Origin: Candidatus Poribacteria bacterium
Lineage (GTDB): Bacteria > Poribacteria > WGA-4E > PCPOR2b
Direction: 5' to 3'
NCBI GenBank assembly: GCA_022822785.1
Contig: JAJEAL010000007.1
Span: 1-46,001 of the forward strand
DNA: 46,001 nt
The notes under the pieces are model-generated. The model was not told where the DNA came from and searched no databases. It saw only the letters and a program-made list of their open reading frames with translations. The stretch's first letter is position 1. Each line of letters starts with the position of its first letter. The position numbers and the translations under genes were made by a program. Of the stretch, positions 16,462-20,895 are shown piece after piece.

Positions 16462-16886
16462 TCCGGGCTTCGATCTTCCTTCCCGATCCCCTCCAATTAT
16501 CTCCCTGCTTCTGTGTCCATTACATGCTCGCGACGATAATCGTAGTAGCCATGCGCCGCATACCGTCACGTTTAGACCTGCCTGTAGTCCGGGGCTCCCC
16601 GGTCACGGGCCTGTTCTCGCCTGCCTGGTCTCGGCTTGTCCCGATTCATCGGGGATTCATTGAAGATCTTCCAGACTTACCCAACCCAATTTCGCAGGAA
16701 ACGGCAATCCGCATTCTAACCGAAAATACGTCACAGTATTGTATATTTTATCCTGTGTTTTTTATTTGTGGATATAGCATGACAATTTATGCGATAAATA
16801 ACACAAACATGTTGACATATTGATGGAAGTGTGTTACATTGTTGTCGTTGGCGTGCAAAATCAAAATGTGAAGGAGTGAAATAACC
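16462..16886. other. Intergenic region: dispersed palindrome, then AT-rich promoter region
   Basis: No gene seen. It contains a GC-rich palindrome CCGGGGctCCCCGG near 16595 and the dispersed CCCGAT..ATCGGG palindrome at 16639-16654. From 16730 the composition turns strongly AT-rich, ahead of the promoter at 16812. Confidence 0.6.
16812..16840 (+). promoter_or_regulatory. Promoter of the DUF2089-DUF4097 operon
   Basis: A perfect TTGACA (16812-16817) is followed after 17 nt by TACATT (16835-16840, four of six). Transcription would begin near 16848, with a 40-nt leader carrying AAGGAG ten bases before the TTG start codon. Confidence 0.65.
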
Positions 16887-17276
16887 TTGCGAAAAATTCT
16901 AGAGGAGTGTCCAACCTGTGGCGGTGAATTGACAGTAACAAGCTTACATTGCCGTGCTTGCCACACCCGAATTGAGAGTGAATATTCGACCTGCCGTTTC
17001 TGTCGCTTGTCACAAGAGAGCCTCGATTTTATTGAAATCTTTGTCAAGAATCGGGGCAATATCAGAGAGATGGAGCGGGAGCTGGAAATCTCCTACCCGA
17101 CCGTCCGTAGCCGATTGAACGCGGTCATCAATGAGCTTGGGTATGAAGTTGAGACGGAATCGGTTGCCGCGGGTGAGGTGGCAGAGGAACGCCGCACCAT
17201 CCTCAAGCGACTCAACGACGGGGAAATCTCCGCCGCGGAGGCGACAAATTTGATCAATCAATTAAGGGAGAGATAA
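16887..17276 (+). CDS. DUF2089 zinc-ribbon/HTH protein with C-terminal SHOCT-like module
   Basis: The gene encodes 129 residues and starts with TTG, supported by AAGGAG (16871-16876). The N-terminal zinc ribbon has CPTCGGELTVTSLHCRAC and CRFCRL. The middle is a helix-turn-helix (FVKNRGNIREMERELEISYPTVRSRL), as in DUF2089 proteins. The C-terminus, EERRTILKRLNDGEISAAEATNLINQL, is the same helical module that opens the next two proteins. It is probably the operon's DNA-binding regulator, perhaps autoregulatory, sensing through the SHOCT-like module. It ends two bases before the next start, so it is co-transcribed. The family is certain; the sensing role is inference. Confidence 0.88.
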   Translation: MRKILEECPTCGGELTVTSLHCRACHTRIESEYSTCRFCRLSQESLDFIEIFVKNRGNIREMERELEISYPTVRSRLNAVINELGYEVETESVAAGEVAEERRTILKRLNDGEISAAEATNLINQLRER

Positions 17277-17278
17277 GG

Positions 17279-18571
17279 ATGAGTGAAGAAAGACGTGAAG
17301 TGCTTAAAATGGTGGCTGAGGGCAAGATTACCGCAGAGGAAGGGGAATCGCTCTTACAAATTCTTGACGCGCGTGATGAATTGAGGCACGATTCCGCAGA
17401 ACCGCCATCGTCCAAAGACAGGCGTGAGGGTGCTGTTGAGATATCTAACGTTGGTCCCGACATCCTAAAAGATCAGGACAAACCTTCGCGTGAATTTAGA
17501 GATGCGGCTAGAGATATAAAACGCGAAGCACGTCGTGACCGTCACGGGAGTCACAGAGTCTGTCACGAAGAACCGAGAACCCAGATGGGCTTTGAAACGG
17601 GTGAAACGTTTGATTTGGAAATCAATAACCGACACGGCGATATTGAAGTGAAATCATGGGTGGGAAATAGTCTCCAGATCGACTATCAGATCACTGTATG
17701 GGCGAAGGATGAGGAGACCGCAAAGAAGATTGCTTCAAACATTGAAATCCGAATTGAACCTGAAAAGGATGCCTCAGATCGAGCGACGAAGACTTCAATT
17801 ACGACGAACTATCCGAAAAAATGGAAGTTATGGAGAAACAGCGGTCCGCGTGCACGGGTCGATTATTGGCTGGTCGTCCCACATCAGACGAACTTAGAAC
17901 TCCACAATCGGCACGGTAATGTGTCCGTAGACGATTCGTGTGGGACGACTACGGTCAGCAGCCGACATGGTGATGTTGCTCTCGGTACAATTGAGGGTCA
18001 TCTAAACTTAGACACACGCCATGGAAACGTCAAAGCGGATTCGATTCAAGGGAATGTATGTTTTGGGGGTGGGCACGGGAATGCCAAGCTGAGTAAAGTC
18101 GGAGGTAACTTTGAAGGTGATCATGCACATGGCCACCTTGAACTTGATGAGGTCGGTGGAGATCTCGCACTAGCGCATCGTCATGGAAATGCTGTCATCC
18201 ACTCGGTGGGTGGCACGGTTGAGGTTTATAAAGGTCACGGGCAAATTGAACTCCGGGAGATACGGGGTACGTTTAACATTGATGCACATCATGCGGGCAC
18301 CCATCTCGATGTGACGTCCCCTTTAAGCGGGGATTGCGTCATCAAGGGGCATCATGCAAGGGTGGACCTTGTTGCGCCGGAAAATGCGTTTGCGTCGATT
18401 CGGGCTTCAACCTATCGTGGCAATATTACCTCAGAATTTGAAGGGAATTTAACCGAGGAGAAGCGGAATCAACAGTTTATAGCGACCCTTGGTGAAAGCG
18501 GAGCAAATCTTCAAATCAGCAACCATCACGGACGGATTAACCTCCGTCGGCGTGATGGGTTGGTTGATTAG
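17279..18571 (+). CDS. SHOCT-like plus DUF4097 beta-solenoid protein with His-Gly ladder
   Basis: The gene encodes 430 residues. Residues 1-32 form the SHOCT-like helical pair (EERREVLKMVAEGKITAEEG). A charged linker follows (about 40-105, many R, D, K and H). The rest is a DUF4097-type right-handed beta-solenoid with an 18-residue period. Nearly every turn starts with a His-Gly or His-His motif: RHGD, RHGN, RHGD, RHGN, GHGN, AHGH, RHGN, GHGQ, HHAG, HHAR, HHGR. There is no signal peptide, so it is likely cytoplasmic or peripheral. YvlB and LiaX of Firmicutes share the SHOCT-DUF4097 layout and act in envelope stress; a similar role is possible. The stacked histidines could bind metal, which is speculation. 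Confidence 0.85.
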   Translation: MSEERREVLKMVAEGKITAEEGESLLQILDARDELRHDSAEPPSSKDRREGAVEISNVGPDILKDQDKPSREFRDAARDIKREARRDRHGSHRVCHEEPRTQMGFETGETFDLEINNRHGDIEVKSWVGNSLQIDYQITVWAKDEETAKKIASNIEIRIEPEKDASDRATKTSITTNYPKKWKLWRNSGPRARVDYWLVVPHQTNLELHNRHGNVSVDDSCGTTTVSSRHGDVALGTIEGHLNLDTRHGNVKADSIQGNVCFGGGHGNAKLSKVGGNFEGDHAHGHLELDEVGGDLALAHRHGNAVIHSVGGTVEVYKGHGQIELREIRGTFNIDAHHAGTHLDVTSPLSGDCVIKGHHARVDLVAPENAFASIRASTYRGNITSEFEGNLTEEKRNQQFIATLGESGANLQISNHHGRINLRRRDGLVD

Positions 18572-18655
18572 TTCAATCGAACACATCTGATGACATTATT
18601 TCGGTAGGGGGGGTATGAGCATCCCTCAAGAAGCTAGCGAAAGGGAGATATAACA

Positions 18656-19759
18656 ATGAGACGAGACAGGCTTGAAGTGCTTAAAATGCTTGCCGAGGGG
18701 AAAATCAGTGCGGAGGAGGCAGAGATGCTGCTACGCGCCCTCGATGAACCTGATGCACCGGGGGAACAACCTGATACTGAAGACGAAAAGCCGAAGCAGG
18801 GGAAGGACTTTTTGCAAGAGGTGACGGAAATCTTTCAGGAGGTTGGACGAGAGATTGAGGTGGAGATAAATCGGGCGGTTGAATCGGTGCAAGGGGCGGA
18901 TGTGAAGACAATTGTCAATGATGTGGTCGATCAGGTGAAGTCATCTGTCGCTGGCGCTGTGGATTCCGTCTCTGATATCGTTGACATTGACGAAGAAGCC
19001 GGCGAAAGACAGCGCGTTAAGCAGCGGCTGGACGTTTTCAGGGGGACCGGCATCACGAAAATTGATGCACAAACCGCTAACGGGCGGATTACGCTCGAAG
19101 GTTCAGACCGAGATGAAGTCGTTGTCCGCGCGCGGAAGGATGTTCGTGGGAGAAGGATTGCCGCTGCGGAATTTGCTGAAAAAGTCGAAATCTCCGCGGA
19201 GCAGGTTGAGGATGAACTTCGTATCTTCAGCAAACACCCACCTGTTCCCAAAGGGGTGAGTCTCGCTGTACGTTATGCGATCGAGACACCGCGGGAGGTT
19301 GATGTGAATCTCCGCACCGTCAACAGTAAAATTAAAGTGAGCGGGACCCGCGGGGCGATTGAGGCGACAACTGTTAATGGGGGTATACGGTTGGAGGGCG
19401 ATACGGGACCGATTCGTGCCCGCAGCACTAACGGGTCAATTAAAGCTGAAATTGATGCGCTCAGGGAGGACGTGGAGTTCTCAACCACCAACGGCTTGAT
19501 AAAAGCCGAGGTGCACAGCGGAACTGCCCCGGTGACCGCGCTCATATCTAATGGATCCATCAATTTAACGCTTCCCGCAGATTTCGCCGGGCAGCTCGAT
19601 GCAAAAGCAAAGAGGGGGCGCATCCATTCTGATTTTCCCATCCCTGTTGAGGGGGCCCTCCGAAATCAGCTCAAGGGAGACATCGGTGGGGGCGGCGAGG
19701 CGGTTGTGAAGTTACGGAGCAGAAATGGGTCGATCCGTCTAAAACGGCAGGAACCTTGA
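18656..19759 (+). CDS. SHOCT-like plus DUF4097 beta-solenoid protein with Asn-Gly ladder
   Basis: The gene encodes 367 residues. Residues 1-31 are the SHOCT-like module (RLEVLKMLAEGKISAEEAEM), nearly identical to that of the preceding gene. About 50-110 form an amphipathic helical stretch (DFLQEVTEIFQEVGREIEVE and on) that could bind a membrane or a partner. The C-terminal DUF4097 solenoid has an 18-residue period marked by TANGRI, TVNSKI, TVNGGI, STNGSI, TTNGLI, ISNGSI and SRNGSI. A GGGAGATATAACA site precedes the ATG. It is the middle solenoid of three consecutive ones, separated from the upstream gene by 84 bases with no terminator, so probably in the same operon. Confidence 0.85.
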   Translation: MRRDRLEVLKMLAEGKISAEEAEMLLRALDEPDAPGEQPDTEDEKPKQGKDFLQEVTEIFQEVGREIEVEINRAVESVQGADVKTIVNDVVDQVKSSVAGAVDSVSDIVDIDEEAGERQRVKQRLDVFRGTGITKIDAQTANGRITLEGSDRDEVVVRARKDVRGRRIAAAEFAEKVEISAEQVEDELRIFSKHPPVPKGVSLAVRYAIETPREVDVNLRTVNSKIKVSGTRGAIEATTVNGGIRLEGDTGPIRARSTNGSIKAEIDALREDVEFSTTNGLIKAEVHSGTAPVTALISNGSINLTLPADFAGQLDAKAKRGRIHSDFPIPVEGALRNQLKGDIGGGGEAVVKLRSRNGSIRLKRQEP

Positions 19760-19845
19760 AGCATGAAACTTTGCGGGTACGGATACCAATGATATGTATA
19801 GGTTAGGAAACCTGCACCCACTACTGTCAATTTTAGGAGGTTATC

Positions 19846-20895
19846 ATGAGGATAGGATTTGGTAGATTTCAAATTATGCCGATTTTGCAGGGCGTGCTGT
19901 TTGCGGGGATGGCTGTTGCTGACGCTGTCGTTGAAGATAACATTGAGAGATTGTTTCAAGTGGCTCCCGGCGGAGGTTTGATGGTTGATGCAGACAGAGG
20001 TGCCATTGAGGTTCGTACCGCAGATAGCGATCGTGTTGATGTAAAGATTGAAAGAAAAGTCAAGAAAGATGGCAAATGGAGCGTTGAAGAGGTCCTTGAG
20101 GATTTCGTAATCACCTTTGACCAGAGCGACGATGGGGTTGTTATCCGAGCGAAGTACGATCGGGAGAATCACCGGCGCTGGAGTCGGGAAAGAAATCGAT
20201 TAAAGGTTAAATTCTTGATTACCGTACCGCAACAGTACAACGTTGATCTGAAAACTTCAGGGGGCAGCATTTCCGTTGAAGATTTGGAAGGTGAGGTTCG
20301 AGGGCAGACATCGGGGGGCGGTCTCCGGTTCGGAAGCATTAAAGGGCCCGTTTGGGGGCGAACTTCGGGCGGCAGCATTAAATTAGAAGGAACGCAAGGC
20401 GATGCGGATGTCAAGACCTCCGGCGGTGGAATTACAATTGGAAGCGTGGCGGGAGTGGTAGAAGCCAAGACCTCTGGTGGATCGATTCGCATTGACAAGG
20501 CAACCGGTCGTGTCAACGCCAAAACCTCTGGAGGTAGCATTACGGTTGAAGAGGTGATGGGAGGCATCAACGCGAAGACCTCCGGCGGGTCTATCAAAGC
20601 GTATATTTCTCGTCAACCTGAAGAGGATTGCTCGCTGGAGACATCAGGGGGAAGCGTGACTGCCTACCTTGTCGAGGATATTGGCATTGATGTGGAGGCT
20701 CGGACAAGCGGTGGTAGTGTCTCTACCGATGTTCCGATCACAACTGTTGTGCAGGGCAAGGTAAGAAAAAACAGGCTACAGGGCGCGATTAACGGCGGGG
20801 GACCGCTGCTAAAACTGCGTACCTCCGGCGGTAGCATTCGTCTGCACAAGAAGCCGAGGGTTGAGGCTCAGCGTGAAAACGAGATAACGAGATAA
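19846..20895 (+). CDS. DUF4097 beta-solenoid protein with Thr-Ser-Gly-Gly ladder, possibly exported
   Basis: The gene encodes 349 residues. It lacks the SHOCT-like module. It begins with a basic segment and a moderately hydrophobic stretch (about 9-27, IMPILQGVLFAGMAVADA), which could be a signal peptide or membrane anchor. From about 125 there are ten TSGG turns (TSGGSI, TSGGGL, TSGGSI, TSGGGI and so on), the first six exactly 18 residues apart, as expected for a tight DUF4097 solenoid. GGAGG stands before the ATG. It closes the operon and may be the extracytoplasmic member of the set. An 8-bp repeat GAGATAAC occurs three times across the stop codon. Confidence 0.84.
   Translation: MRIGFGRFQIMPILQGVLFAGMAVADAVVEDNIERLFQVAPGGGLMVDADRGAIEVRTADSDRVDVKIERKVKKDGKWSVEEVLEDFVITFDQSDDGVVIRAKYDRENHRRWSRERNRLKVKFLITVPQQYNVDLKTSGGSISVEDLEGEVRGQTSGGGLRFGSIKGPVWGRTSGGSIKLEGTQGDADVKTSGGGITIGSVAGVVEAKTSGGSIRIDKATGRVNAKTSGGSITVEEVMGGINAKTSGGSIKAYISRQPEEDCSLETSGGSVTAYLVEDIGIDVEARTSGGSVSTDVPITTVVQGKVRKNRLQGAINGGGPLLKLRTSGGSIRLHKKPRVEAQRENEITR

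Follow-up and report, generated by a model that had tools for sequence, protein, structure and literature searches.

A DUF2089–Toastrack locus of Candidatus Poribacteria and a possible docking role for its SHOCT-like modules

Four co-directional genes at positions 16887-20895 of the + strand are best explained as one operon, the Poribacteria version of the DUF2089–Toastrack stress operon (Toastrack is the current name for DUF4097). They lie in the window, the 46,001-nucleotide stretch analysed here, from a Candidatus Poribacteria genome (host assembly of 5.6 Mb in 147 contigs). The narrower new point, which is well supported by gene order, is that regulator and payload appear to be matched by a shared SHOCT-like module. 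We lean slightly towards a reading in which SHOCT docking of the regulator onto its partner would create a split transcription factor sensing the state of the envelope.

The first-pass annotation of the locus was confirmed as real and mostly exact. Its proposal of an undescribed system was not upheld: a four-gene DUF2089–Toastrack context across diverse bacterial lineages is already described by Ravi et al. (2024; mSystems, PMC11237479), so that the locus belongs to a known system, and a Pfam family named SHOCT-like_DUF2089-C exists. The main-text passages of that paper divide DUF2089 into ZnR-HTH-SHOCT, predict lia-like membrane-stress signalling for DUF2089–Toastrack and name LiaI-LiaF-TM, B-box, PspC and a sigma factor as associates. 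The window locus shares with it a ZnR-HTH-SHOCT DUF2089 gene beside Toastrack genes (all three over the DUF4097 cut-off) in conserved order. It differs in that no PspC domain occurs in the nine genomes of its family, and in having three Toastracks with different ladders, which those main-text passages do not mention. New here are the confinement of the SHOCT-like module to DUF2089 loci together with its varied payloads, two linking fusions, and the conservation of ladder His and Asn with recurring mixed sets. A literature search, with most subscription papers and the Ravi supplements outside its scope, returned nothing published on the rule of SHOCT pairing, on an enhancer-binding protein split between chains or on the typing of ladders.

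Gene content, folds and conservation of the locus

The genes encode 129, 430, 367 and 349 residues and are separated by 2, 84 and 86 nt. The promoter ahead of them (16812..16840, +; TTGACA-17 nt-TACATT with an extended -10, TG) is sigma-70-like, matches at 10/12 positions and scored highest of the eight found in the scan. Its -35 and -10 elements, the ribosome-binding site and the TTG start codon are kept in five other genomes of the genus, whereas other upstream sequence drifts. Coordinates, score and genus-wide conservation thus bear out the earlier description of four consecutive genes behind one good promoter. Comparison of the promoter region across the genus revealed no clear operator palindrome by eye.

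Gene 1 (16887..17276, +; TTG start, with start and ribosome-binding site conserved) was assigned by Pfam as a DUF2089 regulator. It comprises a zinc ribbon at residues 8-39 (PF22747, Zn_ribbon_DUF2089; 16908..17003, +; E 3.1e-12) and a helix-turn-helix (PF09862, DUF2089; 17007..17147, +; E 1e-23), both over the Pfam cut-off, and a C-terminal SHOCT-like module (PF22746, SHOCT-like_DUF2089-C; 17184..17273, +; E 4.7e-6). The last scored 26.5 bits against a Pfam cut-off of 27, and 29.1 bits, over the cut-off, in the genome-wide search. The best explanation of this architecture is a putative zinc-ribbon/HTH DNA-binding protein with a C-terminal SHOCT-like module and without a sensor of its own.

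Gene 2 (17279..18571, +) and gene 3 (18656..19759, +), identified by Pfam and by their orthologues, are SHOCT-Toastrack proteins with DUF4097 matches over the cut-off (E 1.7e-8 and 5.2e-7, respectively). Their N-terminal SHOCT-like modules lie at 17285..17377 (+; E 1.5e-7) and 18668..18751 (+; E 3.3e-8). PF22746 thus matches in genes 1, 2 and 3, as expected from the earlier observation that the same module ends the regulator and begins the first two solenoids. Genes 1-3 contain no transmembrane segments. Residues 50-112 of gene 3 (18803..18991, +) form an amphipathic, probably helical linker with a hydrophobic moment of up to 0.73, for which membrane contact is possible. Gene 4 (19846..20895, +) is a Toastrack protein (DUF4097 E 1.1e-9, over the cut-off) in which Pfam found no SHOCT module. 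Its N-terminus (19846..19923, +) is signal-peptide-like, being hydrophobic and ending ...AVADA, and the hydrophobic segment is kept in 6/6 orthologues; the protein seems to be exported. Given this apparent export and the missing module, the tie of gene 4 to the regulator would be operonic only.

Genes 2 and 4 were modelled with AlphaFold2, using as input the window and L005 sequences (two per model); the models are accordingly shallow, and their N-terminal halves are unreliable. For gene 2 regular two-strand turns of 18 residues were predicted, with pLDDT of about 80-93 over residues 210-380; for gene 4 the turns were likewise two-stranded and of 18 residues, with a core pLDDT of 91-96. In both models the ladder motifs described below sit at the turn between strands. 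The earlier assignment of solenoids with stacked motifs is thereby supported for these two proteins, which the predictions cover. The top PDB match of both models was 4QRK (E 3.7e-3 and 1e-2, prob 0.95 and 1.00, respectively), the Toastrack structure cited in PMC11237479; global TM-scores against it were low because the N-terminal halves were poorly modelled. A sequence-based search of solved structures gave chance matches only.

The nearest named relative is Candidatus Poribacteria MAG L005 (JAJDUM010000106.1), in which genes 2-4 are 74-79% identical and the flanking genes are the same; a related-locus search from gene 3 found a single relative. All four genes, in unchanged order and with matching ladder types, are present in four further members of the genus (G018, G019, G020 and G021) and in a sister genus (G017). 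Two genomes (G022 and G016) retain the regulator and the Asn-ladder protein alone, and genes 2 and 4 are therefore dispensable. DUF2089 loci elsewhere in the class carry His Toastracks (G012 and G005), Asp, His and Asn Toastracks (G008) or Asp and Asn Toastracks (G011). The neighbourhood is conserved in relatives. In genome G010 an Asp/His/Asn array lies at the end of a contig, which would have removed any DUF2089 gene. Full-length DUF2089 is absent from families f2-f4 of the same order; some of these have a form of 93-100 residues, for which no SHOCT partner was found.

Likeness to known stress systems is partial. Genes 2 and 3 resemble LiaX/YvlB of Firmicutes in placing a SHOCT-like module before a Toastrack; the window locus differs by its DUF2089 regulator, and no two-component genes lie directly beside it. 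Membership of LiaX was rejected on NCBIfam NF038025 (34.5 bits for gene 3, and 21.5 bits, against a cut-off of 350), and membership of LiaG, with which the Toastrack repeats are shared, on NF049997 (36-45 bits against 285). A classical Psp/Lia operon was also rejected: the genome has four PspA genes but on other contigs, and PspC was found in 0/9 family genomes.

Ladder periodicity and conservation

The first-pass annotation had described His-Gly, Asn-Gly and Ser-Gly-Gly ladders, all with an 18-residue period. The first two motifs were upheld. In gene 2 the ladder consists of His 119, 212, 230, 248, 266, 284, 302, 320, 338, 359 and 417 (17633..18532, +); HG occurs ten times, with seven consecutive copies exactly 18 residues apart (212-320), against a mean of 2.5 and a maximum of 7 in shuffled sequences. 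In gene 3 it consists of Asn 142, 223, 241, 259, 279, 299 and 357 (19079..19729, +), with six NG at steps of 18, 20 and 20 (shuffle mean 1.0, maximum 5). Gene 4 has ten turns of a T-S-G-G ladder (20257..20835, +), with ten SGG (shuffle mean 0.6, maximum 6). A strict period of 18 thus holds for the run in gene 2; gene 3 mixes 18 and 20, and the steps in gene 4 are mostly 18 and then 21. With shuffle maxima of 7, 5 and 6 against 10, 6 and 10 observed, a chance origin of the ladders was ruled out.

Ladder His residues of gene 2 are kept in 65/66 cells across six orthologues, against a solenoid background of 0.77, and ladder Asn residues of gene 3 in 56/56 cells across eight orthologues, against 0.70; this conservation persists at overall identities down to 47-50%. 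The third ladder required correction. Across six orthologues of gene 4 the Thr is kept in 59/60 cells and the Gly-Gly pair is nearly invariant; Ser is kept in only 70%, under the solenoid background of 84%, and was rejected as a conserved ladder residue. The ladder is therefore better named Thr-x-Gly-Gly.

Single-letter Toastrack ladders (D, S, N, G and H) are common across the phylum, and those of D, S, N and G also occur without DUF2089; every His ladder found belongs to a DUF2089 locus, except for one at a truncated contig end. In that array (G010) the ladder His alternates with Ala (SGAGN) at every second turn.

The earlier suggestion that one scaffold had been deliberately diversified survives in part: mixed-ladder sets (H/N/S and D/H/N) recur in two families, but single-letter ladders are a common property of Toastracks in the phylum. 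The identity of the ladder may instead be structural bookkeeping, in which a small or turn-forming residue before Gly is spread by repeat duplication and the differences are functionally meaningless. We give this a little less than an even chance. It is favoured by the D, S, N and G ladders of Toastracks outside DUF2089 loci, by the poorly conserved Ser of gene 4 and by the His/Ala alternation in G010; it sits badly with His and Asn conservation above background at such low identity, with the near-confinement of His ladders to DUF2089 loci and with the recurrence of mixed sets.

SHOCT-like modules, their payloads and the fusions

Among 85 Poribacteria genomes, 40 of the 42 PF22746 matches over the cut-off fall in DUF2089 loci, the other two being G005:C281 and G001:C213. 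Within the nine genomes of the window's family every SHOCT-like match falls in a DUF2089 locus, even at a loose threshold. Conversely, of 24 separate loci across the phylum with a full-length DUF2089, about 23 carry a SHOCT module either within the same reading frame or in the gene immediately after, a count that includes two loci (G020:C19 and G011:C20) seen in profile searches though missed by reading of the open frames; the DUF2089 of G005, for which no SHOCT partner was found, is the sole exception. The partner usually follows within 131 nt and often overlaps; one lies 745 nt away. The order of DUF2089 and then a SHOCT-first gene also occurs on plasmids of Niallia, Paraclostridium and Legionella, and these three matches together with the main text of Ravi et al. 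(2024) are the basis for extending the system beyond this phylum.

What follows the SHOCT module varies. Besides Toastracks, the payloads are a sigma-54 AAA+ ATPase lacking an HTH (contig C54 of the window's own genome, E 1e-54; also G015 and G017), a leucine-rich-repeat (LRR) protein in G015 with a partial SHOCT, a Yip1-like membrane protein in Legionella (E 3.9e-5, below the cut-off) and small proteins of 94-142 residues. Two fusions link the parts: DUF2089-SHOCT-SHOCT-AAA+ in a single frame of 424 residues (G019), and SHOCT-Fis HTH-Toastrack (G008; Fis HTH 7.5e-10).

The C54 locus is paralogous to that of the window. Its DUF2089 protein matches a Fis HTH (2.7e-4) and its partner is the SHOCT-sigma-54 AAA+ protein, a likeness to enhancer-binding proteins of the PspF/NtrC type; it differs from these in that HTH and AAA+ occupy separate chains, which share only SHOCT modules. 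Together the C54 pair has the parts of an enhancer-binding protein divided between two chains. Sigma-54 is present in 9/9 family genomes.

These distributions also bear on another role for the module. The main text of Ravi et al. (2024; PMC11237479) proposes that SHOCT-like modules act as membrane anchors: the proteins would be tethered separately to the inner leaflet and meet through a common surface. The amphipathic linker of gene 3 agrees with this, as does the absence of transmembrane segments from genes 1-3, by which some tether would be needed. A general anchor would, however, be expected to be scattered over many unrelated genes, whereas the module is nearly confined to DUF2089 loci and occurs there as regulator–partner pairs. 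The sigma-54 AAA+ payload needs DNA, not membrane, and the multi-transmembrane Yip1-like partner is already embedded. Anchoring therefore fits the DUF2089 confinement and the AAA+ payload less well than docking does, and we consider it unlikely.

A possible mechanism and its implications

In the docking reading, SHOCT–SHOCT pairing in trans would attach the gene 1 regulator to its partner, and the two would act as one split transcription factor. Genes 2 and 3 would be cytoplasmic Toastrack solenoids, with gene 4 exported and acting outside the membrane. The amphipathic linker of gene 3, or else partners in the membrane, might bring the cytoplasmic Toastracks to the inner membrane face, where they could serve as a sensing or gathering platform; on a change in the state of the envelope the regulator would be gathered or released. 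It would control its own operon and probably other genes.

A broader proposal, which we hold tentatively, is that the SHOCT-like module provides a general in-trans docking code in which a DUF2089 adaptor accepts interchangeable SHOCT-tagged payloads (ladder-typed Toastracks, HTH-less sigma-54 AAA+, LRR and Yip1-like proteins). The product of the paralogous locus would then be an enhancer-binding protein in two chains, and each ladder type (His, Asn or Thr-Gly-Gly) would read a different cue. We know of no mechanism assigned to DUF2089 or to SHOCT-like domains, widespread as both are. Were SHOCT pairing to prove a docking code, it would offer a simple test of how signals reach DUF2089 regulators, both in envelope stress and in sigma-54 activation, and domains of unknown function would become sensor–adaptor pairs legible from the order of genes alone. 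Ladders of conserved His and Asn define mutants with which to ask whether ladder chemistry functions at all.

For gene 2 a more specific cue can be imagined, the His ladder being a sensor surface for pH or metal ions with up to ten His stacked one per turn. Ten or more stacked His are conserved and are predicted by AlphaFold2 to lie at the inter-strand turn; the G010 protein still forms a ladder with His on alternate turns, and we regard the idea as improbable. A reading of the Toastracks as surface or structural adhesins that adjoin the regulator by chance is very improbable: the PDB deposition of 4QRK labels it a putative cell adhesion protein and gene 4 starts like an exported protein, but genes 2 and 3 begin with SHOCT and no signal, and the neighbourhood is kept across families and phyla and is joined by fusions.

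Gene pairing and possible fusion of DUF2089 with a sigma-54 AAA+ protein

A paralogue of the window locus was located on a second contig of the same genome (G000:C54:13337-13753; L007 436-1758, L086), where a DUF2089 gene is followed by a gene encoding a SHOCT-sigma-54 AAA+ protein that lacks an HTH. The pair looks like a two-chain enhancer-binding protein. The GAFTGA loop of the AAA+ protein has the sequence RAFTGA here and GAFTGA in G019, a further member of the genus. In G019, DUF2089 and AAA+ occur in a single open frame of 424 aa (L095, G019:C120, frame 0), which is either an assembly frameshift or a natural fusion.

SHOCT-like modules in other settings

Small SHOCT-only proteins (94-142 aa) are encoded between DUF2089 and Toastrack genes in three loci (L080 5807-6139, L081 5245-5673 and L075 7080-7466) and between two Toastrack genes in a fourth (L074 2469-2753). 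In two other Poribacteria genomes the module is joined to different payloads: a 741-aa single chain combines SHOCT, a Fis-type HTH and a Toastrack part forming a long Asp-Gly ladder (L077 5711-7936, G008:C20), and a partial SHOCT is fused to leucine-rich repeats (L072 7051-8816, G015:C171), with DUF2089 encoded on one side and a SHOCT-AAA+ protein on the other. The DUF2089 proteins of the f4 families (L023-L030) are short (93-100 aa) and have no SHOCT partner.

Further Toastrack occurrences in the window's genome

A second Toastrack-regulator association in G000 is a run encoding an ECF sigma factor, a zinc-finger anti-sigma factor and a DUF4252-Toastrack protein (L085 6492-9519, G000:C134). 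A frame of ~1,200 aa, found again in most Poribacteria genomes, contains a weak DUF4097 match (G000:C57:31471-31746).
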